Below, in pieces: positions 9,179-31,965 of a stretch of DNA of 64,000 bases; within the stretch, counting starts at the first letter, position 1; each line of letters begins with the position of its first letter. The position numbers were made by a program, and so were the translations under genes. The notes beneath the pieces were generated by a model that was given only the letters and a program-made list of their open reading frames with translations, did not search any database and was not told the DNA's origin. Source of the DNA: a virus; IMG/VR virus record IMGVR_UViG_3300032315_000601, positions 1-64,000 of that record, one strand, 5' to 3'.

Positions 9179-10927
9179 TTAACTTCCGTAAGCAAGTGTT
9201 TTACTAGCTTTTTTGATCAGGTCAACTTTTTTAAACCACTTTTTATAGCCTATATTCTGTTGATACGGATCATCGGCAATTTTGTCGACTGCAGTTAAAT
9301 TGTGCCTCGTTCGACACAGTTCGACCAAGATAAAAGCGGCATCTGAAATGTCTGGCGATTTGCCAATTCGGGACTTCATATCCGATTTAGTTTCGACTCG
9401 TATCCGCATGCTCAAACCTTTTTCCGTGGTGTATTGACGCTCGGTCATTTCTCGAACTAGCTCCCGGCACACTCCGAATAGCTGTTTATTCCGTATTAGC
9501 TCCTTACCCGTCCACCATAACTCCGATACTCTGTTTGCATACCTTTCATGGCCCGGTACCCTGTCCGTCAGGGAGACGGGTTTTTCACTAGCCCTACCCC
9601 CAAACTGCACTCGGAGCACTTTACGGGACCAGAGTGCATCTACCACGTCACCGAAGGGGGCACCGCCTCCACTGGCATCGTAAGCGGCATTCTGGGGAGT
9701 TACGCCCCAAGCTTCGCACTTATCTTTAAATTGTCGGGCAATTTGAAAAGCTCTTGGCTCCTCTTTATTGGTAACGTCCTCCCGAAGCTCTTCGTAGTGG
9801 TCTAGACACATTACTCTTCGTCCAGTGGTATCAATCCCGACAAACCCAAAATACAGAATGCTGCGGTCGCCATTAGCACTAAAAGAAGGGTCAAGAGCGG
9901 CTACTTTAGTTGGCTTGTCGATCCATTCGACCCGCTTGTCGGCTCCGTATTTGATGATGTCGGATTCGCTATAGATAGAAGTGTCCGAACCTGTCGGACA
10001 CCAAAACCCTCGGTACATCCTCCAGTAGCCGGGACTGGTTTCTCCCAGTTTACTTGCACTTTCTGCAAGGTTTTGTGGAGTAATCATCCAAGGATATATC
10101 ACGTGTCCTGCAATAATATTGGGCGACTTGTGCGCATCAAAGTGTAGGCAGTGGCCACGCTCCGTCTCCCACTCTTCATCTTCCACGGTAATCGAGCCCC
10201 ACCCACCTATGGGAGTAGCGAACTGACCGAAGGGGTCGTAATAACTGGCGGGGTTGCCGATGCCGATGAGTTGGAAAAACGGGTTATTGGACAGGTTGGT
10301 GTATGCGGCTTCGAGAATTGACTCGCCTAGTTCGGGCAACTCGTCTGCGATAAAAATCACCCTCTGCTGTTTAATACCTACCAATTTACCTACGGCTTCG
10401 CGTTCTTTTTTACGTTCGGCAGCTACGAGGGCGATGCCGCAACGATCGCCATACTTGGTGTCGGTGCCGTCATCCATGCGGATCATGCCTACGGAGTCGA
10501 CTAGCTTCCCCGGCAGCCCCGGAACCGCTCGCCATAGGTCGGTGATTGCGCCCCAAATACGTTTCCGCGACTCTTTTAAACTTGTTGAAGTAACGATAAC
10601 CAGCGTAGCCCAAGGTTTCATGAGGAAATTCACGATAGCCCACAATGCGTACGCTTGGGATTTGCCGCTACTGGCGCAACCAGCTACCGCCAAGTACTTG
10701 TGCTCAAAAGCGGCCTCAATCATACGCTCCAGCCAAGGCGTCCACTCGATCGGCATCTTGGAATCGGGATGGTTCCAGAGTAAATCCACTACTTGTTTAA
10801 AGTGAAAAAGTTTCCCCGGTGACTGGGGAGGAGGGTCGTTTAGGCAACTCAGTTCCAAGGTCACCAAAGTAATATCGGCGGGGAATTCCCGTCCGTAAAC
10901 CATCACCGTTTTACTTTTTGCAGCCAT
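9179..10927 (-). CDS. terL: Terminase large subunit
   Basis: 582 residues from the ATG at 10927 (a TTG seven codons upstream is a poorer start). This is the packaging motor: an N-terminal ATPase and a C-terminal RNase H-like nuclease. Walker A is GCASSGKS (about residues 83-90) and Walker B is VIFIADE (about 190-196). Nuclease acidic residues lie in ALDPS (about 346), AAYDASGGG (about 417) and SPDISDAAF (about 529). All expected motifs are intact. The gene starts back-to-back with the integrase, 65 bp apart; the two arms of the genome diverge here. The only TerS-like gene is 13 kb away. Confidence 0.93.
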   Translation of the reverse strand: MAAKSKTVMVYGREFPADITLVTLELSCLNDPPPQSPGKLFHFKQVVDLLWNHPDSKMPIEWTPWLERMIEAAFEHKYLAVAGCASSGKSQAYALWAIVNFLMKPWATLVIVTSTSLKESRKRIWGAITDLWRAVPGLPGKLVDSVGMIRMDDGTDTKYGDRCGIALVAAERKKEREAVGKLVGIKQQRVIFIADELPELGESILEAAYTNLSNNPFFQLIGIGNPASYYDPFGQFATPIGGWGSITVEDEEWETERGHCLHFDAHKSPNIIAGHVIYPWMITPQNLAESASKLGETSPGYWRMYRGFWCPTGSDTSIYSESDIIKYGADKRVEWIDKPTKVAALDPSFSANGDRSILYFGFVGIDTTGRRVMCLDHYEELREDVTNKEEPRAFQIARQFKDKCEAWGVTPQNAAYDASGGGAPFGDVVDALWSRKVLRVQFGGRASEKPVSLTDRVPGHERYANRVSELWWTGKELIRNKQLFGVCRELVREMTERQYTTEKGLSMRIRVETKSDMKSRIGKSPDISDAAFILVELCRTRHNLTAVDKIADDPYQQNIGYKKWFKKVDLIKKASKTLAYGS

Positions 10928-10992
10928 CGTTAAAAAAGTTTTTGACAAGATTGGCCGGAGAAGTCAAGGTAGCCACACACAACTTTAAACAC

Positions 10993-12135
10993 ATGAAGCA
11001 GACTCAAACACTGAACTGGCCGCGTGTCCACAAATCGCGCTACGGCAAAATCACTATCTACCGTCAAGTTAAAGACGGTGGTAACATGTTCACCATCTCG
11101 TGGTACGTAGGGGACAAACGGGTTCGGGAGACTACCACGGATCAACTCGATGCGGAAGCGCGAGCGAGGGAAATTATGACACTGTTCCGAGAGGGCAACC
11201 CGCCAAGGGAACCTCGTAAACGCGAAGCTGTGTCCAAAAAAAGTTGGGATCATGTTGTAGGGGACGTGCCGATAGAGGAGGTAGTCAAGTACTACGCTCA
11301 AACCCACAATTTGCTGCCGTCAATTACGGTTCAGAAAGTATGTCAGGGGTACTTAGCGGTCAAGGTCAATTCTGGCATAGGGTCAAGATACCGACAAACT
11401 TTGCAACAACATTTGAATAAATTTTCAACTAAATACGGAGATACCAACATTAGCGCAGTAACCTCTGCGGAGCTAAACGACTATCTGTTGAACATGGTCG
11501 ATTTGAGAACAAGGTTTAATCATCGAGCAAGTCTTCGTGGATTGTTCAAATGGGCTAAGAATCAGAACTACATCCATAAATCCTGCGTTGAAGAAACGGA
11601 ACTGCCGAAATTTAAGAACAAAAGTCCTGACCTGTTTACTGCGGATGAACTGGCTAAGTTGGTAGCCGTAGCCGATGAACGATCCCTGCCCATGCTTATT
11701 GCGGGGGCGTATGCGGGTGTCCGGATGTCAGAGATTGAACGGCTAAAATGGAGTGACATTAACTGGGAGGAACGAGCTTTTATCCTTGGGCCGGAATTGA
11801 CGAAGACCAACCGTGGTAGGGTGGCTTACTTTCCCAAATGTGTGGAAGAAACCCTACGGAAACTCGCAGTTACGGCCAGACTGAGGGACTGCACTAAATT
11901 CTTGCAAGACACCTGTTCAGATCACATTTCAAAGCTGGTGAAAGATAGCAGGGTAGTGTGGAGAAAAAATGGATTGCGTAAAACTTTCATTTCATGTCAA
12001 ATCTCCCTGACACGGAACGCAGCAGAAGTAGCGGAACAGTGTGGAAATTCACCTACAGTTATTCAACAAAACTACAAAGGTCTCGTAACTAAAGTCGAAG
12101 CCGAAACATGGTTCAACGTACTTGCATCAACTTAA
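10993..12135 (+). CDS. int: Tyrosine recombinase / integrase
   Basis: 380 residues from the ATG at 10993; an earlier in-frame start at 10918 would run into terL. The N-terminal half holds an arm-binding and a SAM-like core-binding region, and the catalytic domain is C-terminal. Catalytic candidates: Arg 244 (AGVRMSEIERL), Lys 271 (LTKTNRG), Asn 326 with Arg 329 (NGLRKTF, where His is usual), Asn 352 (GNSP, His in most relatives) and Tyr 361 (QNYKGLV). The His-to-Asn changes and the closing EAETWF pattern resemble integrases from Verrucomicrobiota/PVC genomes. It suggests lysogeny. No attP was identified beside it. Confidence 0.9.
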   Translation: MKQTQTLNWPRVHKSRYGKITIYRQVKDGGNMFTISWYVGDKRVRETTTDQLDAEARAREIMTLFREGNPPREPRKREAVSKKSWDHVVGDVPIEEVVKYYAQTHNLLPSITVQKVCQGYLAVKVNSGIGSRYRQTLQQHLNKFSTKYGDTNISAVTSAELNDYLLNMVDLRTRFNHRASLRGLFKWAKNQNYIHKSCVEETELPKFKNKSPDLFTADELAKLVAVADERSLPMLIAGAYAGVRMSEIERLKWSDINWEERAFILGPELTKTNRGRVAYFPKCVEETLRKLAVTARLRDCTKFLQDTCSDHISKLVKDSRVVWRKNGLRKTFISCQISLTRNAAEVAEQCGNSPTVIQQNYKGLVTKVEAETWFNVLAST

Positions 12136-12967: not shown

Positions 12968-13237
12968 ATGGCTATTAACGACCTAAGTCAGGCAGGAAAA
13001 GGCGACTCTCCCCGTCCAGTAAACGGGGACGAGTATCGCAAAAACTACGATTCTATCTTCCGTAAGAAGTATCCGGATTGGATTTGCAATTCTTGTGGGA
13101 AGCTCCACGGGAAGAGACCCGAGGGCAATCCCTACGGAGCTACCTACCATATCGATGAGTGTGGCATTTGCGGTGAGGTATGCGAAGTCACAGAATGTCG
13201 TGACTTTGGCCATCTCAAAGAAGGTTGGAACCGCTGA
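12968..13237 (+). CDS. Small zinc-binding phage protein
   Basis: 89 residues. A first CNSCGK knuckle near residue 40 and a second group, DECGICGEVCEVTECRDFGH, near residues 62-82 make a probable zinc ribbon. The 'CgiCg...vTe.rDFG' ending is a pattern I recall from small conserved phage proteins of unknown function. Its ATG sits immediately after the terminator T-run, so expression depends on read-through or on a leaderless-like start. The 3' end overlaps the helicase start by 13 nt. Confidence 0.75.
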   Translation: MAINDLSQAGKGDSPRPVNGDEYRKNYDSIFRKKYPDWICNSCGKLHGKRPEGNPYGATYHIDECGICGEVCEVTECRDFGHLKEGWNR

Positions 13238-15666
13238 AAACTCTCTACCCAGTCCAAGCAACGCATGTGCAAAAAATCTGCACGGCTTTACTGCGTAACA
13301 ACGCCGCGCTTGACTCCAGCGACACGGGCACGGGTAAGACTGTATGCGCTGTAGAGGCTACCAAGACTCTTGGTAAGAAAGCCTTCGTTATTTGCCCGAA
13401 GATCGTGATTCCTTCGTGGGAAAAAACTTTGGCTGAACAAGGTGCTTCAGTGATCGGTATCGTTAACTACGAAAAACTGCGCACGGGTCGCACACGATTT
13501 GGCCATTGGGCAGCAAAGAACTTCACGTTCACAATACCGGACGATGCACTAATCATCTGGGACGAGGTTCATCGTTGCCAAGGACTCTGGAGTAAAAACG
13601 CCAAAATGCTGATCTCGGCAAAGAAGTGGACGAACCTCATGCTCTCGGCATCGGCTTGCGAAGATCCAACCGAGATGAGGGCCAGCGGGTTTGTGCTAGG
13701 GCTGCACAGCCTTTCAAACTTTTTTAACTGGGCCAAAGCTCGGGGCTGCTACGTAAATCCGTGGGGTGCGCTGGAGTTCAAGCAAAACGAGCGGTGGGCA
13801 CTGGACAGCATTAACCAAGAACTTTACCCAGCGCGGGGCGATCGTATGACGCGAGCCGACCTCAAAGATTTTTTCAAAAACACACGCATTATCACCGACC
13901 CGTTGGACTTTGGGGACAAGGGTCAGATTCAAAAAATTTATGACGAAATGGACCAAGAACTCTCAGCCCTCGAACAAAAAGCCAAGGGAGACAGCAAAAA
14001 CAAAGCCGCACAAAAACTTGTTGCTCAACTCCGAGCTAGACAAGGAATCGAACTTGCAAAAGTACCAGCAACGGTTGAAATCATCGAAGACGAAATCCAA
14101 GGGGGCAATTCGGTGGCCGTCTTCCTCAACTTTGATGCTACGCTTGAAGCGATTGGGCAACGGCTCAAAGTCCCCTACGAAGTCATCAAAGGCGGTCAAA
14201 AAGCGGAAGCCAGAGAAAAAGCGGTGGGTAACTTTTGCGCAGACAGAACACACGTTATCCTATGCAACATCGCCGCTGGAGGACTGGGAGTTTCGCTCCA
14301 CGATGTCAATGGGGTTCGTCCCCGCACGGCCCTTATTTCACCAACGTACAACGCCAAAGACATGCTCCAAACCATCGGACGAGTTGATCGAGCAGGAGCC
14401 CAAAGCGACAGCGTCCAACGGATCCTCTTCGCGGCGGGTACGGTCGAAGAGAAAGTTGAAACGAGCGTTCGAGCTAAATTAAAAAATATTTCGGATCTGC
14501 ACGAAAAAGATTTGACCGAACCGGAAACACCAAGTATCAATGTCCCACACATGAATGAGAAACCGACACAAACGGTAGAGAAACTTCACGCCGAGCACGG
14601 GCCTTCGAGCCTCAAATACAAGGAGATTTGTCCTAGCTGGCGCAACCGCGAAGGCAAGAACTGGGCCTCCGAAAAGGGTGATCGCATTCACGAAGCGATG
14701 GAGTTCGATGACCCGTCCAAATGCGCCAACGACGAAGAACGATCCATCTACGAGTTGCTCCAAGGTTACGTAGCCCAAATTTGCAAGGGCAGGCAGGTGA
14801 CGAAAGATTTTCGCGAGGTCAAGGTCCAAATCGATCTGGGGGCGGGTCGTAATACTTTCGGCACCTGTGATCGGTTTATCACGTACGCCAATGGCGTGGC
14901 GGACGCGATCGATTACAAGACCGGATTCGGCGCAATCGATGACGCCGAGATCAATATCCAAGGTCAGGCTTACGTGCTGGGACTGTTCCAAAAATTTACT
15001 GATATTCAAGAAATCACCATGTATTTTCTCGTGCCAGCGCGGGACGAGGTATCAATGCACACGTACAAAAGAAGTGATATGGGTGGTATCAAACTACGTG
15101 TGTCAACAGTCATCGAACGTGCCCAACTGGGTGAGGTGTTTAATCCGCAAGCTGGAGTTTGCGATTATTGTGGCAATCAGGCACGATGCACCGCGCTGGC
15201 CGAGAAAGCTCTTCTCATTGCGAAACGATACGACACGGAAGGTCTGGTGATTCCGGACTCGGTTCGTGGTTCCGAACAAGACGATCCTGAAAAAGTTTCC
15301 GATCTACTAACCTTAGTCCCCATCATTGAATCGTGGGCGACCGGAGTCCGTAAACGGGCTACTGAAATGGCCGTGGATCAAGGTTTAGAGCTTCCGGGGT
15401 TCAAGGTCATCGAGATGACCAAGCCAAGAACAATTACAAGTGCGCTAGGTGCGTACGAGGCCGTTAAGGATAGCGTAGATTTGCGTGACTTCCTTTCTGC
15501 CGTCGACAAGGTCTCCGTGACCAAGTTGGAAGACATTTTTGCCCAGAAAGCCGCTCGCGGCACAAAGGCGAAAACTCGCGCTGCCCTCGAAGGGAAGTTG
15601 CGGGATTTAGGAGTCCTTCAAGATGAAGGGGTTTCCTATCAACTAAGAAAAAATAAAAACCAATAA
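13225..15666 (+). CDS. SNF2-type helicase fused to PD-(D/E)XK nuclease
   Basis: 813 residues from a TTG at 13225 (preceded directly by AAGAAGG). Helicase part: motif I SSDTGTGKT (31-39), motif II DEVH (113-116), motif III LSASA (140-144), motif VI QTIGRVDRAG (382-391). From about residue 455 a separate nuclease domain begins (SSLKYKEICPSW). It carries His 489, Asp 549 (GTCDRF), Asp 563 with Lys 565 (IDYKTG) and Gln 579, then Cys 646, 649 and 655, possibly metal binding. The last 150 residues resemble the tail of DUF2800 phage nucleases. These parts are normally separate genes in phages. An internal ATG at 14551 could also give the nuclease alone. Confidence 0.85.
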   Translation: MEPLKTLYPVQATHVQKICTALLRNNAALDSSDTGTGKTVCAVEATKTLGKKAFVICPKIVIPSWEKTLAEQGASVIGIVNYEKLRTGRTRFGHWAAKNFTFTIPDDALIIWDEVHRCQGLWSKNAKMLISAKKWTNLMLSASACEDPTEMRASGFVLGLHSLSNFFNWAKARGCYVNPWGALEFKQNERWALDSINQELYPARGDRMTRADLKDFFKNTRIITDPLDFGDKGQIQKIYDEMDQELSALEQKAKGDSKNKAAQKLVAQLRARQGIELAKVPATVEIIEDEIQGGNSVAVFLNFDATLEAIGQRLKVPYEVIKGGQKAEAREKAVGNFCADRTHVILCNIAAGGLGVSLHDVNGVRPRTALISPTYNAKDMLQTIGRVDRAGAQSDSVQRILFAAGTVEEKVETSVRAKLKNISDLHEKDLTEPETPSINVPHMNEKPTQTVEKLHAEHGPSSLKYKEICPSWRNREGKNWASEKGDRIHEAMEFDDPSKCANDEERSIYELLQGYVAQICKGRQVTKDFREVKVQIDLGAGRNTFGTCDRFITYANGVADAIDYKTGFGAIDDAEINIQGQAYVLGLFQKFTDIQEITMYFLVPARDEVSMHTYKRSDMGGIKLRVSTVIERAQLGEVFNPQAGVCDYCGNQARCTALAEKALLIAKRYDTEGLVIPDSVRGSEQDDPEKVSDLLTLVPIIESWATGVRKRATEMAVDQGLELPGFKVIEMTKPRTITSALGAYEAVKDSVDLRDFLSAVDKVSVTKLEDIFAQKAARGTKAKTRAALEGKLRDLGVLQDEGVSYQLRKNKNQ

Positions 15667-16458: not shown

Positions 16459-16567
16459 GTTCGGGTACGGCGAATGCTGTGCGGGGAGATCCCGCACGAC
16501 AGGGTTATCGTAGGCGTTAAAACGCCCCTCATGTGTTCCCTAGTGTGAAACAAAGTTGTACCCGAAC
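16459..16567 (+). ncRNA. Candidate structured RNA before DNA polymerase
   Basis: GTTCGGGTAC (16459-16468) and GTACCCGAAC (16558-16567) make a 10-bp perfect closing stem around about 90 nt. Inside are GTGCGGG/CCCGCAC (16479-16485 and 16491-16497, 5-nt loop), ACGA/TCGT near 16496-16511, and GGCGTT/AACGCC (16513-16526). This multi-branched fold fills nearly the whole gap, ending 15 nt before the polymerase ATG, so it may gate translation of that gene. No known RNA class was recognised. It has no T-run, so a terminator is unlikely. Confidence 0.55.
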
Positions 16568-16582
16568 CTTTACTATTACAAA

Positions 16583-18337
16583 ATGGAAACCGCTGCCGTA
16601 GACTTCGAAACCTTCTACAACGAAGAAGTAGGGGTCGAAACACTGGGGGTTTGGCACTACTGTCGCCATCCTGAATTCGAAGCTTATTTGGTAACTATTG
16701 CCACTACAACGGGGCTTAAGTACTGTGGCCACCCCGAAAATTTCGATTGGTCATCTATATCGGGGGCTAACTGGCGTTGGGTCAGCCACAACAGGTCTTT
16801 TGACCAGCCTGTGTACGAGAGTCTGGTTGAATTCGATAAAGTCCCCCATCACTTTCCTGCAGTATGGGACTGCACCGCCGATCTGTCGGCGTTCCTCGGG
16901 GCTCCGAGAAATCTTAAGAACGCCTCTGCAACTCTACTTGGCGCAGATGTGTCGAAAGACACGCGAAACAAGATGAAGGGACAGCGTTGGGCTAATATGA
17001 ACCCCGAGTTCCAGAAAGAAGTCGAGGAATACGCCATCAAAGACGCCGAACTCTGTTTACAGATATGGGAGAAATACGGCGATCGTTGGCCCGAACACGA
17101 ACGGTGGCTCTCTAGGGAGACCACGAGAATGTGTCTGCAGGGTGTGCCGCTCAACAGTGTCACAATATCTGATCGCATAGAACATCTTAAAGTTTTGCTT
17201 TGGGAGGCTAGGGTCAAACTTCCGTGGGTTGAGGACGATCGCCCAACTCTCTCGGCCCTAGCATTGGCTGAAGAGTGCCGCAAAGTGGGGATCTCCCCGC
17301 CCCCTTCGTTGGCGGAGGACAGTCCGGAGTGCGAAGCATGGGAAGCCCAGTATGGTCAGACATACCCGTGGGTATCCGCTATGCGTCAGTACCGTAAATG
17401 CAACATTCTCCTTAAGAAGCTGGAGACGATGCGCAAGCGTCTGCGACCGGATGGTTGGATGGCGTACGGCCTCAAATATTTTGGTGCTACTACGGGTAGG
17501 GACAGCGGAGACGCTGGATTGAACATGCAGAACCTCCAGCGAGCCGAGAGCTACGGGGTCAATGTTCGAGGGCTTATCGAGGCCCCAGAAGGGTACTCCT
17601 TTGTTATTTCAGATCTGTCTCAGATTGAACCGCGCTGCCTCTCATGGCTGGCGGGGGACATGGATATGCTCAACTTCATTGCCAAGAGTTCCGACCTGTA
17701 CGAAGCGCAAGCCCGTGCGTGGGGCTTCTGGGACAAACCCGAATCTTTGCGGGAAGACAAGACCGGAGTGCGGCACTTGGTGAAACAACTCAACTTGGGC
17801 CTAGGCTACGGGATGGGTATAAAACGTTTCTGCGAAGTAACCGGACTCGAAACGCATAGAGCGGGAGAACTGGTCGCGCTCTACCGCAGAAAAAATCCAA
17901 AAGTTCTCGCTCTTTGGAAACTGCTGGAAAACAATCTTCGCATGTCGGTAACACGGAATGACGAGACTTACGAAATCGAACTGCCCAGTGGGCGCAGACT
18001 CTCGTATAGAAATCCGAACAACAATGAGAGTCACCTCAGTGCTGAAATCGTTCGTGGCGGTAAATACGTACGGATGAAGTGGTGGGGAGGGTCCCTAACC
18101 GAGAATATCACGCAGGGTATGGCAAGAGACTGTTTCATGACTGCCGTGAAACGCATACGGGAAGCCAACATTCCCGTCATCATGCGAGTCCACGACGAAG
18201 TGGTCTGCTGCGTCAAAGACAGCGAGGCTGATGTCGCCAAGAAAACTATTGAAGCAATCATGCAAAGACCGCCCGAGTGGGCTAGTAATTTGCCTCTGGC
18301 TTGCGAAACCAAGATAACCAAGAAATACGAAAAATAA
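16583..18337 (+). CDS. DNA polymerase, family A, with 3'-5' exonuclease
   Basis: 584 residues from the ATG at 16583; an earlier in-frame start at 16556 would lie inside the RNA stem. Exonuclease residues: Asp 7 and Glu 9 (VDFETF), Asp 74 (NRSFDQ), Tyr 150 and Asp 154 (YAIKDAE). Polymerase motif A is DLSQIEPR (Asp 344), with Leu and Pro where Tyr and Leu are usual. The O-helix has Arg 397, Lys 401, Leu 405 and Tyr 409, and motif C is VHDEV (537-541). Leu 405 takes the place of E. coli Phe 762. No 5'-3' exonuclease domain. It would copy the phage genome together with the primase-helicase downstream. Confidence 0.93.
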   Translation: METAAVDFETFYNEEVGVETLGVWHYCRHPEFEAYLVTIATTTGLKYCGHPENFDWSSISGANWRWVSHNRSFDQPVYESLVEFDKVPHHFPAVWDCTADLSAFLGAPRNLKNASATLLGADVSKDTRNKMKGQRWANMNPEFQKEVEEYAIKDAELCLQIWEKYGDRWPEHERWLSRETTRMCLQGVPLNSVTISDRIEHLKVLLWEARVKLPWVEDDRPTLSALALAEECRKVGISPPPSLAEDSPECEAWEAQYGQTYPWVSAMRQYRKCNILLKKLETMRKRLRPDGWMAYGLKYFGATTGRDSGDAGLNMQNLQRAESYGVNVRGLIEAPEGYSFVISDLSQIEPRCLSWLAGDMDMLNFIAKSSDLYEAQARAWGFWDKPESLREDKTGVRHLVKQLNLGLGYGMGIKRFCEVTGLETHRAGELVALYRRKNPKVLALWKLLENNLRMSVTRNDETYEIELPSGRRLSYRNPNNNESHLSAEIVRGGKYVRMKWWGGSLTENITQGMARDCFMTAVKRIREANIPVIMRVHDEVVCCVKDSEADVAKKTIEAIMQRPPEWASNLPLACETKITKKYEK

Positions 18338-18728: not shown

Positions 18729-18950
18729 ATGTCAAACACACAAATGACACAGGAATCGCTGGACGTTCTAGAAAAACTTAGTGGTTGGACAGAGGGTCGC
18801 AAGTACGAAGAGAACCATTGGCCTAGTATAGTAGTGCTGGCAACTGGCGAGGATGGAGTAATGTGGATGCACCGGGATGATGGTGAAAAGATAAAGCGGC
18901 TAGAACATATGGACATCGATGGAAAAGTCTTCGTGAGAGATCCACAATGA
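18729..18950 (+). CDS. Small hypothetical protein in replication operon
   Basis: 73 residues, 6 nt after the previous stop, ending in an ATGA overlap with the primase-helicase start. The sequence is Trp- and His-containing with a DGVMWMHRDDGEKIKRL centre, suggesting a small beta hairpin fold. No family was recognised. Tight packing on both sides supports it as a real gene. Confidence 0.65.
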   Translation: MSNTQMTQESLDVLEKLSGWTEGRKYEENHWPSIVVLATGEDGVMWMHRDDGEKIKRLEHMDIDGKVFVRDPQ

Positions 18951-21100
18951 AAACATTCTACGCAAAGAACCTAGCCTCGTCGGACGTGCAGGAAATGCCA
19001 TGCGACCCATGGCTGGCAACTTCATCCGGATACCCCGCCAACGTAGCCACTAAAGATGACTACGAAAAATGGGTACGGGACAAAGCTGTCGACCACTGCT
19101 TCTACACAGCGGCGGAAGGCGTCAATCCGCACAAGCGCATTTCGCTGGAGAATCCCGCGAAGTGGCTGCACGGACTGGTTGCGGACTACGATGCAAAGCT
19201 CGATCCTAACTTCAACCTGCAGGACATACTTTCGCGTTGCGATGCGGACGCGATGCCTGCTGCGGTAAGCCGTACTTTCAGCGGCAACGCCCGTGTAGTC
19301 TGGCAGTTCGACTCTCCCGTGCTGGTGGACTGTCCGGAGATGACGAAGCACCTGATGAAGGAGATTGCCAAGAAGTTCAAGCTGGGCAACGTCCTTCCGG
19401 GAATCGACGAATGCACCTTCAGACTAAACCAGCTATTTGAAATCGGCCACGGCTGGGTACCCGTAAGCGGTACTCCCGGAGTAGCCGATACCGTGACGGG
19501 GGACTTGATCGTCAAGGCCAGCGGCAAGGTGGACTGGAACAAAGTCGCAGGAAGCGATCTCGAAATCCCCATTGATAAGATCGCAGCCGAAGTCGAAGCT
19601 CGCTGGCCCGGAGCATGGCCGGGAGACTTCACCGTGGGTTCCCGTGGCCCGACCTTCTGGCTTAACGATGGGATCACCCGCATCGGGTGTCAGGTAGCCG
19701 AGGCAGGGATTATCTGCTACACGGATCGTGCTGGTAAGTCGTTTATGACTTGGGGCGATCTGCTGGGCAAACAATTCGTCGATCAGTACCGCCAAGAGGT
19801 GATCGGCAAAGCCGTCATGGAGTATTACTATGATGGCAAGGCGTACTGGTTCAAGAACGGAGCCAATCGCTGGTACGATGCGAAAGTGGAGAACGTGGCT
19901 CGAAGTCTCAGGGTTCATGGGATCAAGACTGAGTCCAAGAAGGGTGCATCTCAAATGGACCGAGTACTCCACGCAATCGAGACCCAGAGACGGGTAGATG
20001 CGGCGGCTCCGATCCTGTTCGACAAGCGGGAGATAGTCGATGTCGGCAACACCAGAATACTTAACATCAACTACCGCACTGCGATTGCTCCTGCTGATAC
20101 GGGAGATGAGTCTACTTGGCCGTGGCTCAGAGAGTGGGTCTGGTCCTGCTTTGGCGAGGAACAGCTTCCCTACTGGCTGGCCTACTGGAAACGCAAGTAC
20201 AAAGCAGCCTTGGAGTTCGAACCTGTGCAAAGTCAGTTGATTGTACTGGCTGGCGGTGCGGGTCAGGGCAAAACCCTGTTCAACCGCAAGGTCATGGGCG
20301 ATAGTCTGGGCGGCTGGGCGGACGCTGCCCCTTATTTACAGGGTAAAACCAGCTTCAACAAGACAGTGGCCGAACATCCGCATTGGGTGGTCGATGACCC
20401 TCAATCGGCTATTGATCCGGACAAACACCGTCAGTTCTCAGAATCTTTGAAAGCCCACGTAGCCAACCCCACGGTTATCTACCATCCAAAGTTCAAGGAT
20501 GCCACAGAACTGCCGTGGACGGGGTGTATGTGCCTGACACTCAACACTGACGCACACTCCCTGTCGGTCCTACCCACTCTGGATAACAACATTCTTGATA
20601 AGATAATGCTTTTCCAGTTCGAAGACTACCAGCACAAGTTCTCCTCCAACAAAGAGAACGAGGAGATTATTAAGAAAGAACTGCCACACTTCTTGCGGTG
20701 GTTGCTCGACTATTCACCGCCCATCCACGTCGAGTGGTCCGAGAATCCAAGGTTCGGGATACGGCCCTACCACCATCCCAAGATGATGGAGTCGGCCAAT
20801 GAGGACTCCGCTGCTACCAAACTAGAGGAGATCCTCGATCGGTGGGCCAGTGGGGTGCGCCGTGACGAGAAGACCAAGAAAGAATGGAAGGGTACGGCAA
20901 CGGACCTGTTCTCCAGCATCATGGGTATGGATGAAGGTATGCTCAAGCCGCTGCTGTCGCGGTACACTCCAGTGAGACTTGGCCGCGAACTGCGCATGTT
21001 GGCAAACAGATCTTCAAGTAGGGTCTTGCGTCATGTCTCACATCATGGTAAAACTTGGTACGTAATTTCAGTTGAGGAAACTTTTACCAAGAAAAAATAA
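18947..21100 (+). CDS. Primase-helicase (AEP-like primase plus SF3-like helicase)
   Basis: 717 residues. The N-terminal 220 residues show a prim-pol-like core: VADYDAKL (about 78-85, acidic pair Asp 80/Asp 82) and FSGNARVVWQF (111-121). The C-terminal half has a Walker A GGAGQGKT (436-443) and a Walker B-like WVVDDPQS (480-487), the layout of phage/plasmid DUF5906 or D5-type replicative helicases. It would open the duplex and prime synthesis for the family A polymerase upstream. The gene overlaps the previous one by ATGA. No separate DnaB/DnaG pair is present, consistent with this protein doing both jobs. Confidence 0.85.
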   Translation: MKTFYAKNLASSDVQEMPCDPWLATSSGYPANVATKDDYEKWVRDKAVDHCFYTAAEGVNPHKRISLENPAKWLHGLVADYDAKLDPNFNLQDILSRCDADAMPAAVSRTFSGNARVVWQFDSPVLVDCPEMTKHLMKEIAKKFKLGNVLPGIDECTFRLNQLFEIGHGWVPVSGTPGVADTVTGDLIVKASGKVDWNKVAGSDLEIPIDKIAAEVEARWPGAWPGDFTVGSRGPTFWLNDGITRIGCQVAEAGIICYTDRAGKSFMTWGDLLGKQFVDQYRQEVIGKAVMEYYYDGKAYWFKNGANRWYDAKVENVARSLRVHGIKTESKKGASQMDRVLHAIETQRRVDAAAPILFDKREIVDVGNTRILNINYRTAIAPADTGDESTWPWLREWVWSCFGEEQLPYWLAYWKRKYKAALEFEPVQSQLIVLAGGAGQGKTLFNRKVMGDSLGGWADAAPYLQGKTSFNKTVAEHPHWVVDDPQSAIDPDKHRQFSESLKAHVANPTVIYHPKFKDATELPWTGCMCLTLNTDAHSLSVLPTLDNNILDKIMLFQFEDYQHKFSSNKENEEIIKKELPHFLRWLLDYSPPIHVEWSENPRFGIRPYHHPKMMESANEDSAATKLEEILDRWASGVRRDEKTKKEWKGTATDLFSSIMGMDEGMLKPLLSRYTPVRLGRELRMLANRSSSRVLRHVSHHGKTWYVISVEETFTKKK

Positions 21101-21102
21101 TT

Positions 21103-21375
21103 ATGGGCGACCAATATAAAACAGTATTTGAAAAAGTTAAGACATTCCCCGGTCCAACAGCTAGGGGCCGTGTTCTCCAAGCGCGTGCTGAAGCTTACGA
21201 TAAAGTTAAACCTCGCAGTAAAGGGAGTGCAGGTCGCGACTCAGCTGGAGTTCAAAGAGATAACGAATATTATTTCGGGGGTAGGGATGGAGTGGCTGCC
21301 TACCAAAAACTATTCCAATCACAATCAGACAGTACCCTAAAGAAAGCAAAGGACTCGATGTCCAAGAAAAAATAA
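21103..21375 (+). CDS. Small basic protein with DKVKPRS motif (copy 1)
   Basis: 90 residues, 2 nt after the primase-helicase stop. Basic, with YDKVKPRS, one residue, GSAGRDSA at about residues 32-48, followed by QRDN. Nearly the same block occurs in the 84-residue protein two genes downstream, so the two are paralogues or share a binding motif. Ends in Lys-rich KDSMSKKK. Function unknown; DNA or RNA binding or a virion-packaged peptide are possible. Confidence 0.65.
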   Translation: MGDQYKTVFEKVKTFPGPTARGRVLQARAEAYDKVKPRSKGSAGRDSAGVQRDNEYYFGGRDGVAAYQKLFQSQSDSTLKKAKDSMSKKK

Positions 21376-21380
21376 TTAAT

Positions 21381-21704
21381 ATGATCCCTATCAATCGCAC
21401 TAACACCGGATACACTCCTCCGCGCCCTAACGTAACTGCAAGTACCCTCGCACCGCTTAGCGGAGCTAGGGGGAACATGGGTCAACTTCAAAGTAGTCTC
21501 GCGTACCAACAAGCAGGTATGGAGGGTAAGAGACAGATGGAGCAGAACGTCGATATGGGCCGACCTGTCGGGGTTCGGGACGTGGCTCGCTACGAGCAAG
21601 ACCTCGAACAGCAGAAAATGAGGGAAGCCGCCGCCCTGCGAGTCGGTCAAGGCATGCCCCAGTTGGCGCAGGCCAAGAAAAACTTCGAGACAAACGTATT
21701 CTAA
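21381..21704 (+). CDS. Hypothetical protein between the paired basic proteins
   Basis: 107 residues starting 5 nt after copy 1. Pro/Gly/Gln rich with little predicted order in the first 40 residues, then a helical, Glu/Gln/Arg-rich part (about 70-107). No family was recognised. Spacing and A/T-rich leader match its neighbours, so translation is likely. Confidence 0.55.
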   Translation: MIPINRTNTGYTPPRPNVTASTLAPLSGARGNMGQLQSSLAYQQAGMEGKRQMEQNVDMGRPVGVRDVARYEQDLEQQKMREAAALRVGQGMPQLAQAKKNFETNVF

Positions 21705-21708
21705 AAAT

Positions 21709-21963
21709 ATGGACAAACTCAAACAAGCCAAAGATTTTTTCGATAAAGTCAAACCACGCAGCGCGGGTAGCGCAGGGCGTGAGTCTGCCGAGAAACAAAG
21801 GAAGCGGGATCGCATTTTGCGCGACCTCGGTGCTGGTCCCACGATTTCGGTGGAGAGGATTCCGAATGCCAAAATGATCATGCCGTCCACGGAAAGCATG
21901 ATGCGGGAGGGCGAGATGGATCTGGTCAACTACCCCCGCAATACTCGCGGCGTGAAGAAATAG
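21709..21963 (+). CDS. Small basic protein with DKVKPRS motif (copy 2)
   Basis: 84 residues. Residues 12-30 (FDKVKPRS, one residue, GSAGRESA, then KQRKRD) repeat the motif of the gene at 21103. The second half is different, with MIMPSTESMMREGEMD. This is the last gene before the 1.5-kb non-coding region. Function unknown; the repeated motif suggests binding of a common partner. Confidence 0.65.
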   Translation: MDKLKQAKDFFDKVKPRSAGSAGRESAEKQRKRDRILRDLGAGPTISVERIPNAKMIMPSTESMMREGEMDLVNYPRNTRGVKK

Positions 21964-22095
21964 CTGGCGCGGCCCCTCGACGGGACCCCAGTTTACTAAA
22001 TAACCACCTACACACAACCCCTCCCCGGCGGCTAAAATTGAGTTTGAGTTATCAGTACTATTTGTACCCAAGAATTTGGAGCCCGGAGGGCGGTT

Positions 22096-22497
22096 GGGTA
22101 GGGATGGGTAGGGGTGGAAAAATCTGTAGCATGTACCTTGGAACCAAGGAGTTACGAGAAAGTGGGTAGGGGTGGGTAGGGGTGAGGGTAGGGGTGAAAA
22201 ATTATTTATAAGTTCCTGGGTTCCAAGGACTTAACCCCGATTGGGTAGGGGATGTAGGGCTTTTTTTGGAAACCGTGCGGCTCCGCGCCGTATTTTCCCG
22301 CCCGCTGGGGGTTTCCCGGTTCCTTATATTATAATTTATCTTCAATCAATTTAAAAAAGCCCTACATCCCCTACCCAACCCCAGTTAAGTACCTTGAAAA
22401 TCAAGCACTTAAGGTGGGTAGGGGTGGAATTTTTCGCGATTTCCTCCCCTACCCTTTCTCTGTAGGTGGGTAGGGGTGACTTTTTCCTCCCCTACCC
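22096..22497. repeat. GGGTAGGGGT decamer repeats (G-quadruplex capable)
   Basis: Plus-strand copies at 22096 (one change), 22106, 22164, 22174, 22186, 22243 (one change), 22416 and 22468. Inverted cores CCCCTACCC lie at 22368, 22446 and 22489. Pairs of opposite copies form stems at 22416-22454 and 22468-22497. Runs 22096-22114 and 22164-22194 have four or more G-tracts with 1-3-nt loops, a textbook G-quadruplex pattern. Confidence 0.85.
22219..22396. repeat. Nested inverted repeat with 26-bp perfect arms
   Basis: The 26-nt arm at 22241-22266 (starting TTGGGTAGGGG and ending in six T) is the exact reverse complement of 22353-22378. Outside it, CAAGGACTTAA (22224-22234) nearly pairs with TTAAGTACCTTG (22385-22396). 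Inside, GGAAACC (22268-22274) pairs with GGTTTCC (22310-22316), and an AT-rich stretch (22325-22358) follows. The structure could extrude as a cruciform, act as an origin, or act as a two-way terminator. Confidence 0.8.
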
Positions 22498-22662
22498 AAT
22501 ATGATATTCTGATTCTTGGATCCTTTGTTCGGGGTATTAGTATCGTTAAACGGTACTTTTGAGTACTGAATCGTAAATAGTCCAAGCCAAATTTGAACTA
22601 TTGGTCATTCTGTATGCTTTTGACATGTCTCCCTGACTCCCACATGCGCTTTGTTTGGTTCC

Positions 22663-23240
22663 CTGTACGCTAGGGTACAGTAGTGTCTCAGGAACGTTAC
22701 ACTGGGGTGGTATTGAAAAGTGCGTAGTTTTTGTGACAGGGTCGAAGTCTCCGGTGTACTCCCGCCCCCTGATCCCCCTACTTTTGATTCTTTGGCCCCT
22801 AGGAGGCGTTTTCATGGGTTCAGGGGGTCCAAGGTCGGGAAACCAAAAAATTTTTTCTTAGAGGGTGTATATATTGAAGCTCTGTTCTGTATAGCGGGTG
22901 ATAGGGGTACCCGCGTGGTGGTTGCGTGGATTACAGACGTGCGTAGACGCTGTAGCTACGGCGTTGGATTCCGAGCGGCCCTCGGCGTTTTTTTCCGCCT
23001 GTTTGCTGTCCATCGGTATGCATGATGCAGCGACAAGCTGTCCGCTCAAGCGGTTGGTTCTTTATACAGTATCTGCGGCGAGGCCGAGTGGCCTCAATGT
23101 GATCGCCGAGACAAGGACGATTCACTCCCACGCCGGAAAGTGGGAAACGGTAGCGATGGGATTTCCCTCCGCCTCGACCCGTAGACGAAATGACGTGCAG
23201 GGCGCGATTAGCAACGCATCAAAACCTACTGAGACACGTC
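22663..23240 (+). ncRNA. Candidate large structured RNA region
   Basis: A chain of perfect stems within about 550 nt: CTGTAC/GTACAG (22663-22680), CCCCCTGA/TCAGGGGG (22765-22827), GCGGGT/ACCCGC (22894-22914), CCGAG/CTCGG (22971-22985), CAGC/GCTG (23028-23040), CCGC/GCGG (23042-23053), and CGGC then GAGGCC-GAGT-GGCCTC closed by GCCG (23076-23108). Later stems are CCCAC/GTGGG (23128-23145) and GGGAAA/TTTCCC (23142-23166). Such density without a gene, in a phage with a nearby tRNA, is the setting in which ornate RNAs such as GOLLD or ROOL occur, but I cannot match it to a known class. Confidence 0.35.
22971..22994 (+). terminator. Terminator-like hairpin
   Basis: CCGAG, a 5-nt loop and CTCGG (22971-22985), then CG and seven T (22988-22994). 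The stem is short (5 bp, GC-rich) but the T-run is good. It could end a short RNA from the region upstream. Confidence 0.5.
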
Positions 23241-23399
23241 AACGTCCACGCGCACGGACAGCGCAAAGCAAACAACTCTGCTTCAAGAGTCAACCCAACC
23301 CTCAACCCTCGGACATTCTGCGGTATGCGGATGTTCTTAAGTTCCTGACCGATAACTCTACAATTCACCTTGTGTAATGCGGCCAGCGAATCAGAGGCT

Positions 23400-23503
23400 C
23401 ACCCAGTCCGGTTTATTCTCGGGCTGGGTGTAATCTGCAGGAATCGAAACCATCATCGCTTCGCGGTGCATGACCCTTCGGCCTCCTGCAGATAAACACC
23501 CAG
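23400..23503 (+). promoter_or_regulatory. Leader with mutually exclusive stems before the 23518 gene
   Basis: CTGGGTGT (23424-23431) can pair back with CACCCAG (23400-23406), or forward with ACACCCAG (23496-23503). The forward option adds a neighbouring stem TCTGCAGG/CCTGCAGA (23434-23441 with 23485-23492), 16 bp in total, ending 14 nt before the ATG at 23518. Only one arrangement can exist at a time. The forward form would close the leader just before the ribosome site, so it could switch translation of the 23518 gene. No aptamer class was recognised. Confidence 0.55.
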
Positions 23504-25963: not shown

Positions 25964-26037
25964 GCACCTTTCGCCAAGTGGTAAGGCAAGACTCTGCAAA
26001 AGTCTCATCGTCGGTTCGATTCCGACAAGGTGCTCCA
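25964..26037 (+). tRNA. tRNA-Cys (GCA)
   Basis: A full cloverleaf can be drawn: acceptor GCACCTT/AAGGTGC, a D-arm GCC/GGC, anticodon stem AGACT/AGTCT with loop CTGCAAA (anticodon GCA), T-arm GTCGG/CCGAC with loop TTCGATT, discriminator T and an encoded CCA end. All stems pair perfectly. It sits between two small genes in the plus-strand array and is probably cut from that transcript. Confidence 0.93.
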
Positions 26038-26276: not shown

Positions 26277-26875
26277 AGTTTGCATTCAATACACCGCGTG
26301 AAGCCATAGAAATGTGGCTCAATCGGATAATGTTCAACGTCCCGAATCTCAACGTCTATTCCAAGGGCCGCAAGGTCTATGCGGATGGGCACCTCATGAA
26401 TTCCTACGGAGGTCACTACCCCTTGATCCGATGGATTCCGGAATACGCGACCCTCACAGTCAACGAAGACACGTATTCCAACACCACGTCGAGACACCAA
26501 CAGCAAGCTCGGAGTTTGGCTTACAGCTACGCCAGCACGATGGGCTACCGATTCGAGAACTCCAAAATCTTGCAGAAAATAGCCGTGCTGCGGCTGTCTT
26601 ATGCGGACAGTGCGTGGCTTCCGGATATCTCGGCTGACAGAGTCCTCGCCTACTACCACGAAAGAATACGCGAGCGAGCGTTGAAAGCCAAGCGAGCAAG
26701 GTCCGACTGGTCTCGGACGCAGGGTCTCCGCTTCGCCAACGAGTGGATTGTGGAGCGCAACACCTTCGTTTCCAGATTCGCCAAGAAACTGGCCGAGTAT
26801 GGAATCACCACAACACCGGAGCTACCCGAGGACGTGCAAGCGACCCTCGTTCTGCTCAAGCTAACCGAACAATGA
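26273..26875 (+). CDS. Hypothetical phage protein
   Basis: 200 residues with ATGA overlaps at both ends. A beta-rich first third (NVYSKGRKVYADGHLMNSYG, then YPLIRWIPEYATLTVNEDTY) is followed by a helical part with many Arg and Ala (about 80-200). The pattern 'SYGgHYPLirw....lvN.d.yS..TsrHQ' is a conserved phage protein of unknown role, by my recollection. Confidence 0.7.
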   Translation: MKFAFNTPREAIEMWLNRIMFNVPNLNVYSKGRKVYADGHLMNSYGGHYPLIRWIPEYATLTVNEDTYSNTTSRHQQQARSLAYSYASTMGYRFENSKILQKIAVLRLSYADSAWLPDISADRVLAYYHERIRERALKAKRARSDWSRTQGLRFANEWIVERNTFVSRFAKKLAEYGITTTPELPEDVQATLVLLKLTEQ

Positions 26876-30590: not shown

Positions 30591-30769
30591 GTAACAACAT
30601 AACCAACAAGAGTAAGGTCAAGAAGTATATACTGGAGTTCGCAAAAACGAACCGAGCACACGAGTTCACCCGAGTCTCGCAAGAAACATGCGACAAAGTA
30701 GAAGCAGCTGCACGTTCTGCAGCCCGATCCATTGCAACATCAGCACCATCGAAAGGAAAAACACTATGA
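30587..30769 (+). CDS. Small basic conserved phage protein
   Basis: 60 residues: K-rich start, then EFAKTNRAHEFTRVSQETCD and a helical Ala/Arg tail. The 'R...FTRVS.e..d.v.a' pattern is common in small phage proteins of unknown role. ATGA overlap links it to the VWA gene. Confidence 0.65.
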   Translation: MSNNITNKSKVKKYILEFAKTNRAHEFTRVSQETCDKVEAAARSAARSIATSAPSKGKTL

Positions 30770-31965
30770 GTAATCCAAATACAAAACCCCGCAAGAAAGC
30801 CAACGCCAATGACGAAGCCCTGCGCGTAGAGAAATCGGTAGTCAAGATGGTATTAGACCATCCGTTCTTCGCTGCACTGGCACTCAAGATGCGAGTCAAG
30901 CAGGACTACGCCGTCCCCACATTCTGTGTGGATGGTGTGAGCATGCGATACAATCCGGACTTCTGTGCCACGCTCGACGATACCGAGTTGTTGACTGTCC
31001 TCGCCCACGAGGTTCTTCACTTGGCGTTCGGCCATCTGTGGCGCAAGGGCAGCCGCAAGATGAAGAAGTGGAACCACGCTACGGACTACGTGATCAACAA
31101 CTACCTCATGAAATACAATGAGGACGAGGTTGCTGCCAGTAGACACGCTCCCTTCAAGCTACCCGAAGGCGGGTTGCTCGATTCCAAATACGACAACATG
31201 GCCGAGGAGGAAGTATACAATCTCCTGCCCGATCCCCCCGATGGTGGCGGTGGCGGTAGTGGTGGAGGCGGCGGCGAAGACGAGAGCGGTGGCATGGGCG
31301 ACTTCACGGACCCAGCTGCCGACGATGGCAACACCGAGGAGGACTGGCGTCAGCGAGCCGTTGAAGGTATCAACGCCTCCAAGTTGCGGGGCCGCGAGTC
31401 GGGTAGTATGACCCGCGCTATCGAGCGACACCTCAAGGGCACACAAGACTGGCGCGAGGTTCTGCGCGAGTTGCTGTCGGCTCCATCCAACGATGACTAC
31501 GATGAGACACGACCCGATCGCCGCTTCATGGAGGAGGACATCTTCCTGCCTACCCTATACAGCGAGCGTGTCGGCACCTTCGTTGTTGCCTTGGATACAT
31601 CTGGTTCGGTAACCAACGAGATGTTGGGCAAGTTCATGGCGGAGGTTCAGTATTGTTTGGACACCGTCAAGCCAGAGAAGATCATTGTCATCGACTGCGA
31701 TGCCGCGATCAATCAAGAACGCGAGTTCGCTTACGGCGACAACCTTCGAGACTTCACTGCCAAGGGTGGTGGCGGCACAGACTTCCGTCCTGTATTCGAC
31801 AGGGTCAAGTCTCTGCCCGATTCGCCCGAAGCTGTGGTCTACTTCACCGATGGTTACGGAGCCTTCCCGACCGAGCATCCCGGCTATCCGGTGATCTGGG
31901 TCGACTACGGAGGCACCGACTATCCGTTTGGCCAAGTAGTCCGCATCAACAGTGCGGATAGCTGA
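30766..31965 (+). CDS. HExxH metallopeptidase/VWA-domain protein
   Basis: 399 residues from the ATG at 30766 (AAAGGA upstream). Residues 81-90 read HEVLHLAFGH, a zinc-binding HExxH. A low-complexity Gly-rich linker (about 158-176) follows, then a VWA-type C-terminal part with the metal-dependent adhesion site DTSGS (277-281) and a TDGYG loop (about 373). This is the DUF2201-type layout. It lies close behind the MoxR ATPase, its normal partner type. Target unknown in a phage. Confidence 0.85.
   Translation: MSNPNTKPRKKANANDEALRVEKSVVKMVLDHPFFAALALKMRVKQDYAVPTFCVDGVSMRYNPDFCATLDDTELLTVLAHEVLHLAFGHLWRKGSRKMKKWNHATDYVINNYLMKYNEDEVAASRHAPFKLPEGGLLDSKYDNMAEEEVYNLLPDPPDGGGGGSGGGGGEDESGGMGDFTDPAADDGNTEEDWRQRAVEGINASKLRGRESGSMTRAIERHLKGTQDWREVLRELLSAPSNDDYDETRPDRRFMEEDIFLPTLYSERVGTFVVALDTSGSVTNEMLGKFMAEVQYCLDTVKPEKIIVIDCDAAINQEREFAYGDNLRDFTAKGGGGTDFRPVFDRVKSLPDSPEAVVYFTDGYGAFPTEHPGYPVIWVDYGGTDYPFGQVVRINSADS

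Follow-up and report, generated by a model that had tools for sequence, protein, structure and literature searches.

The stretch of DNA analyzed in this study, further called the window, comprises 64,000 nt of the 70,180-bp virus record IMGVR_UViG_3300032315_000601 in IMG/VR. It encodes a DNA helicase-exonuclease fusion, a family A DNA polymerase and a primase-helicase, followed by a non-coding array of about 400 bp in which short repeats (iterons) lie on both sides of a centrally located inverted repeat. This array, a putative replication origin, is the subject of the analysis (Table 1). The non-coding stretch begins past an open reading frame (ORF) of 84 aa that ends at position 21963, and the next plus-strand ORF taken as a gene starts at 23470. 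The inverted repeat itself starts 1141 nt past the stop codon of the primase-helicase gene, with three small ORFs intervening. The original prediction for this locus, which described the inverted repeat as directly following the replication genes, is thus right about the downstream location but not about the direct adjacency.

The arms of the inverted repeat are exact reverse complements of 26 nt each, separated by a spacer of 86 nt, with T6 closing the left arm and A6 opening the right arm, exactly as predicted. The repeat lengthens to 46 nt at 85% match (22221-22266 and 22353-22398), which explains the outer arms that had been noticed before, and the inner motifs GGAAACC and GGTTTCC were both located in the spacer (22268-22274 and 22310-22316, respectively). 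The predicted AT-rich core corresponds to the stretch adjoining the right arm. With spacers of up to 300 nt allowed, the 26-nt repeat is the longest perfect inverted repeat in the 64 kb of the window, the runner-up having arms of 13 nt, and in 40 windows generated by a first-order Markov model the longest perfect inverted repeat did not exceed 14 nt. Folding, which had been proposed as a check, gave a single-strand structure for the repeat region that is much more stable than in shuffled sequences (z-scores of -7.7 with RNA and -7.8 with DNA parameters). A scan for hairpins inside the array returned only small ones, within the spacer.

The original prediction overlooked that the two arms are members of an eleven-copy repeat array. 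The inverted repeat thus consists of two repeat units facing each other across the 86-nt spacer, each with a degenerate second copy, and inverted iterons flank a spacer that includes an AT-rich stretch. The repeats are essentially confined to this single place. With at most two mismatches, TGGGTAGGGGTG has 14 matches in the window versus 4.2 expected (the largest number in a shuffled sequence was 11), and 11 of the 14 are inside the array. Exact GGGTAGGGG sites are found exclusively in the array when the whole 70,180-bp record is considered (10/10), and 71 out of 74 are inside the arrays over seven related records, among which there are five distinct arrays (those of G000 and G001 are identical, as are those of G003 and G005). 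A G-quadruplex may be conceivable from pairs such as GGGTAGGGGTGGGTAGGGG, but sites for a protein would explain more and are preferred because single repeats are conserved too. A text search of the literature with the repeat motif gave no related title among the matches listed.

Table 1. Coordinates of the candidate origin, its parts and the upstream replication genes in the window.
Feature	Position	Strand	Characteristics
Whole iteron array, proposed origin	22095-22498		eleven GGGTAGGG sites: eight +, three -
Left iteron group	22095-22196	+	copies start at 22095, 22105, 22163, 22173, 22185; tandem copies 10-12 bp apart
Imperfect palindrome 1	22133-22155		TAAGT..CCTTGG..CCAAGG..ACTTA type; between iteron groups
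Imperfect palindrome 2	22209-22233		TAAGT..CCTTGG..CCAAGG..ACTTA type; between iteron groups
Left arm	22241-22266	+	iteron TGGGTAGGGG, then degenerate second unit (GTAGGG core 9 bp further), then T6
GC-rich left half of spacer	22267-22319		small hairpins possible; poorly conserved
AT-rich stretch adjoining right arm	22320-22352		85% A+T; proposed DNA unwinding element
Right arm	22353-22378	-	exact reverse complement of left arm
Imperfect palindrome 3	22385-22412		TTAAGT..CTTGA-AAA-TCAAG..ACTTAA; 25/28 bases invariant among close relatives
Right iteron group	22415-22498		22415 (+), 22446 (-), 22467 (+), 22489 (-)
Helicase fused to exonuclease	13225-15666	+	DNA helicase fusion (DUF2800 / PD-(D/E)XK)
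Family A DNA polymerase	16556-18337	+	
Primase-helicase, proposed initiator	18947-21100	+	717 aa; DUF5906 (AAA+/SF3 helicase) domain

A 20-mer spanning two tandem repeats retrieved six contigs from the viral collection, all of which encode the primase with an identity of 89-100%. A profile search with the primase found seven primase contigs, the seventh of which stops about 190 bases past the gene, as judged from its coordinates. The order and spacing of the array are preserved in the six related contigs, and an alignment of their arrays (five distinct) reveals variable DNA interrupted by invariant blocks, which correspond to the repeats, the arms and a portion of the AT-rich stretch. An AT-rich stretch is present at the matching place in contigs L002, L003, L004, L005, and L008. 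The original prediction had also called for a comparison of the arms among relatives. The close relatives give no answer here because their arms hardly vary: 24 of the 26 arm pairs are invariant, one varies on one side and breaks once, another breaks once, and compensated changes are absent.

A more distant relative, the 70,776-bp contig L057, is more informative in this respect. Its polymerase and primase are 74 and 63% identical to those of the window, respectively. Contig L057 has no GGGTAGGGG array but carries an array of the GGTGGGGTAG type at 0.65-1 kb after the primase gene, and all eight exact GGTGGGGTRG sites in its record are inside this array. The inverted repeat of L057 has arms of 20 nt, with 19 out of 20 pairs complementary, and a spacer of 93 nt that, like that of the window, is GC-rich on the left and AT-rich where it adjoins the right arm. 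The right-hand sites, measured from the center, are found at +117.5, +138.5, +165.5, and +182.5 in L057 versus +110, +141, +162, and +184 in the window, with three of the four orientations in agreement; the left-hand sites agree more poorly. Compared with the window, both arms have changed jointly in L057, and inverted iterons suffice to account for this, with no hairpin needed. A conserved layout with a changed repeat would be expected of an initiator and an origin that change together. The C-terminal part of the L057 primase is also the most diverged (52% identity versus 61-67% elsewhere), in line with a predicted DNA-binding role of this part.

The gene upstream of the array encodes a primase-helicase that matches the DUF5906 family (PF19263, E-value 4.6e-6) with 27.7 bits, barely over the cut-off of 27.6, and phrog_1829 (DNA primase, 1.4e-5) as its sole PHROG match. 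The L057 primase likewise has phrog_1829 as its only PHROG match (2.2e-5). We presume that the N-terminal part of the window protein contains AEP-type primase motifs. DUF5906 is described as the AAA+ helicase portion of the D5-like proteins of poxviruses and of the protein of phage NrS-1 (PMC9611036). The domain is present in the primase proteins of the window, L057, Lactobacillus phage phiadh and Streptococcus thermophilus phage Sfi21. Searches of phage records with the window primase (tblastn) and with the DNA of window positions 21500-23500 gave no match, and a profile search of the PDB with the primase returned three matches with unrelated names (best E-value 0.069).

Two phages with a DUF5906 protein have an annotated origin of similar layout. 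In phiadh (AJ131519), the annotated rep_origin (13084-13469) is located directly 3′ of the DUF5906/phrog_1829 primase gene and contains, as in the window, G-rich inward iterons (GTGTAGGGTTA) with inverted copies opposite to them and an AT-rich spacer. It differs in its repeat, in the spacer of 118 nt, in the distance to the primase gene (0.07 kb versus 1.1 kb in the window) and in the number of copies of the commonest 8-mer within 400 bp (six versus ten). The phiadh primase is only distantly related to that of the window. It matches phrog_1829 at 3e-292, the sole PHROG that the window and L057 primases match, in their case weakly. In Sfi21 (NC_000872, 34487-34784), a 302-bp element annotated as ‘origin of replication ... 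phage inhibitory sequence’ is located 3′ of the DUF5906 helicase gene, again with a perfect inverted repeat around an AT-rich spacer. Its arms, built of tandem iterons, are CTTTAGTTACTTAGTTAC and GTAACTAAGTAACTAAAG, its spacer measures 71 nt and it lies 59 nt past the primase gene; the element is smaller than that of the window and has another repeat. Two secondary sources describe the Sfi21 element as an active origin that also blocks the accumulation of phage DNA (PMC6356513, PMC12570759).

Comparable arrangements are found in other replicons. In plasmid pRN1, a stem-loop of about 100 nt with a 21-nt stem and a 58-nt loop, located 3′ of the primase-SF3 helicase gene, is reported as required for replication by Berkner et al. 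(2014) (PMC4234260). The shared feature is a long hairpin-capable inverted repeat 3′ of a primase-helicase gene, but pRN1 has no iterons according to the same paper, in which a stem-loop is also proposed for Bordetella phage BIP-1 and phage BPP-1 is called nearly identical to BIP-1. In BPP-1 (L074), we found an inverted repeat of tandem iterons, with TTGCCTCGT twice per arm, at 467 nt past the primase gene. This repeat (L074 2608-2711; record 26607-26710), between bbp27 and bbp28, is a candidate origin that is distinct from the published stem-loop at the end of the primase gene. The SaPI and SCCmec elements, of which the origins were matched by description only, likewise carry iterons immediately past the helicase gene; the C-terminal domain of their helicases is reported to recognize the origin iterons, and binding as two hexamers is proposed (PMC7581432).

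We surveyed 18 records, our own choice among 60 that were listed out of 1331 encoding a BPP-1-like primase, for an inverted repeat (score of at least 12, spacer of 40-130) whose arms contain a tandem repeat with a period of 8-12, a criterion that was set after the first examples had been seen. It is passed by four of the 18 (Apocalypse, Taquito, phiadh, and RcWhiteOak) and, beyond the sample, by BPP-1, Sfi21, and L057. BPP-1 was the query, phiadh came from the list and Sfi21 was selected for its known origin. Each passing record has one such place, 59-727 nt past the primase gene, and none elsewhere in 265 kb; Markov sequence contained none in 1.33 Mb. The spacers of Apocalypse and Taquito are only mildly AT-richer than their loci (0.41 vs 0.33 and 0.47 vs 0.32, respectively). 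By title or start of abstract, we found nothing in the literature that states such an inverted tandem-iteron rule, which is no proof of its absence.

Iterons in an array, a spacer rich in AT, a location past the primase-helicase gene and a layout resembling that of two annotated origins together make it highly probable that the array is a phage replication origin of the phiadh/Sfi21 kind, predicted to be bound by its initiator. The primase-helicase, probably via its C-terminal domain, would bind the repeats, and two hexamers would form on the facing arms. These hexamers might then melt the AT-rich stretch, where priming would take place, and the family A polymerase of the phage would extend the primers. 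A cruciform could aid the melting but would not be required. Two of the related genomes, G000 and G005, have identical ends of 123 bp at different genome positions and look like circular, complete assemblies, a class that IMG/VR does not give them; two circular assemblies fit with theta replication.

Several observations weigh against an origin at this place, with GC skew as the main one. The maximum of the cumulative GC skew tends to mark the terminus and the minimum the origin. In all four genomes analyzed (G000, G005, G002, and G007), which are related and hence not independent, the detrended cumulative GC skew has its maximum at 0.76-1.37 kb to the right of the array, where an origin would canonically have the minimum. 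At four-fold sites, with the gene strand modelled, all four genomes are C-rich in the half that lies downstream of the array; the half-circle pole is near the array and only 1, 1, 0, and 0 of 300 gene-label permutations, respectively, reach the observed value. AT skew has no such pole (48, 217, 49, and 90 of 300 permutations reach the observed value). In addition, in 14 of the 18 phages that were sampled on account of a homologous primase-helicase, no such layout is present near its gene, and the window itself fails the tandem-arm criterion, which is our own and not an established one, the second unit of each of its arms being degenerate. An hhalign comparison of the window primase with the single sequences of phiadh, BPP-1, and Sfi21 was not significant, and modelling of the protein with AlphaFold failed (pLDDT 37.5).

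The skew would be better accommodated if the array were a replication terminus or another late-replicated landmark (a fork trap or resolution site), with the origin at the opposite side near 57-58 kb: the cumulative skew peaks by the array, and the strand-corrected pole of the four-fold sites is 0-8 kb away in the four genomes. We regard this as improbable. An AT-rich spacer within inverted iterons by a primase-helicase gene is the anatomy of an origin, as annotated in phiadh and Sfi21. The opposite pole has no iteron cluster (outside the array, which has 11 copies, no 8-mer cluster of G000 is denser than three copies), and the annotated origin of phiadh is off any skew extremum, which makes skew a weak guide here. 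The origin is retained on account of the last two points. Binding by a partition or regulatory protein, which would make the array a centromere or operator, is less probable still. Centromeres and operators, too, can have palindromes interspersed among repeats of either orientation, and a second class of palindromes is present here, but we found no ParA/ParB or known regulator among the ORFs examined (part of those in the window), and the AT-rich stretch and the position after the primase-helicase gene would be left unexplained.

The original prediction offered an origin, an attachment site and a bidirectional terminator as possible functions, of which the origin is the one supported. A phage attachment site is very improbable: a tyrosine recombinase gene (10918-12135) is conserved in all seven related records, but it is 10 kb off, many iterons with an AT-rich spacer are unlike the anatomy of an attachment site, the annotated attachment site of phiadh is separate from its iteron element, and no host or prophage was found. 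In genome contigs, the primase profile search gave 207 pattern matches, none of them a relative, and the tandem 20-mer gave one actinobacterial match with two repeats only, taken as chance. Just as improbable is a bidirectional terminator or structured RNA, for which the strong predicted fold would speak, since the T-tracts lie within the stem, next to the loop, and leave no U-tract after the big stem, Rfam yields one tRNA at the gathering threshold in the window and for the array region only microRNA models far under their gathering scores, and L057 retains the repeat layout but not the arm sequence.

Some further features were observed around the array. The small ORFs between the primase gene and the array are variable (21103-21963 in the window, 8160-9380 in L002, and 1646-2062 in L003), and several of them contain a DKVKPRSxGSAGRxSA-like motif, apparently as duplicated and diverged copies. 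To the right of the array, a conserved inverted repeat AATAGTTCAAG-N5-CTTGAACTATT (22576-22602; imperfect in the window) is comparable in size to an operator or to the core site of a tyrosine recombinase. Another non-coding element that hardly varies, CCAAAAAATTTTTTCTCAGAGGGTGTATATATA (22843-22876), has a single copy in the window and is also found in L002, L003, L005, and L008, in L004 with a change and in L057 in a shorter form; it is followed by a conserved hairpin-like ACCCGCGTGGTGG stretch and is promoter-like. The window further encodes a complete tRNA-Cys gene (25964-26037) and a putative metallopeptidase with a VWA-like domain (DUF2201; 30688-31965), here in a phage genome. The matches of the tyrosine recombinase gene contain stop codons in four of the related records; we presume a likeness of this recombinase to Verrucomicrobiota integrases. 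The helicase-exonuclease of the window splits into two tblastn pieces about 0.7-1 kb apart in L057 (6217-7242) and L056 (6522-7229), which suggests two genes or an insertion.

The comparison of L057, phiadh, Sfi21, BPP-1, two mycobacteriophages, and one Rhodobacter phage suggests a possible rule for finding origins independently of their sequence, namely that an inverted repeat with tandem-repeat arms should be sought immediately 3′ of a gene for a DUF5906 primase-helicase. Tentatively, and with more doubt than confidence, facing tandem iterons around a melting spacer 3′ of the initiator gene might even be one origin design common to phages that share a DUF5906 primase-helicase but infect unrelated hosts. 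Under this design, the geometry would stay fixed as the repeat drifts with the initiator, with the reversed GC-skew pole observed here hinting at an unusual mode of fork movement or strand exposure. The repeat switch between L057 and the group of the window offers a natural experiment on the joint change of initiator and origin. For this uncultured group of phages of about 70 kb, the analysis maps a candidate origin and proposes an initiator together with its putative binding motif.
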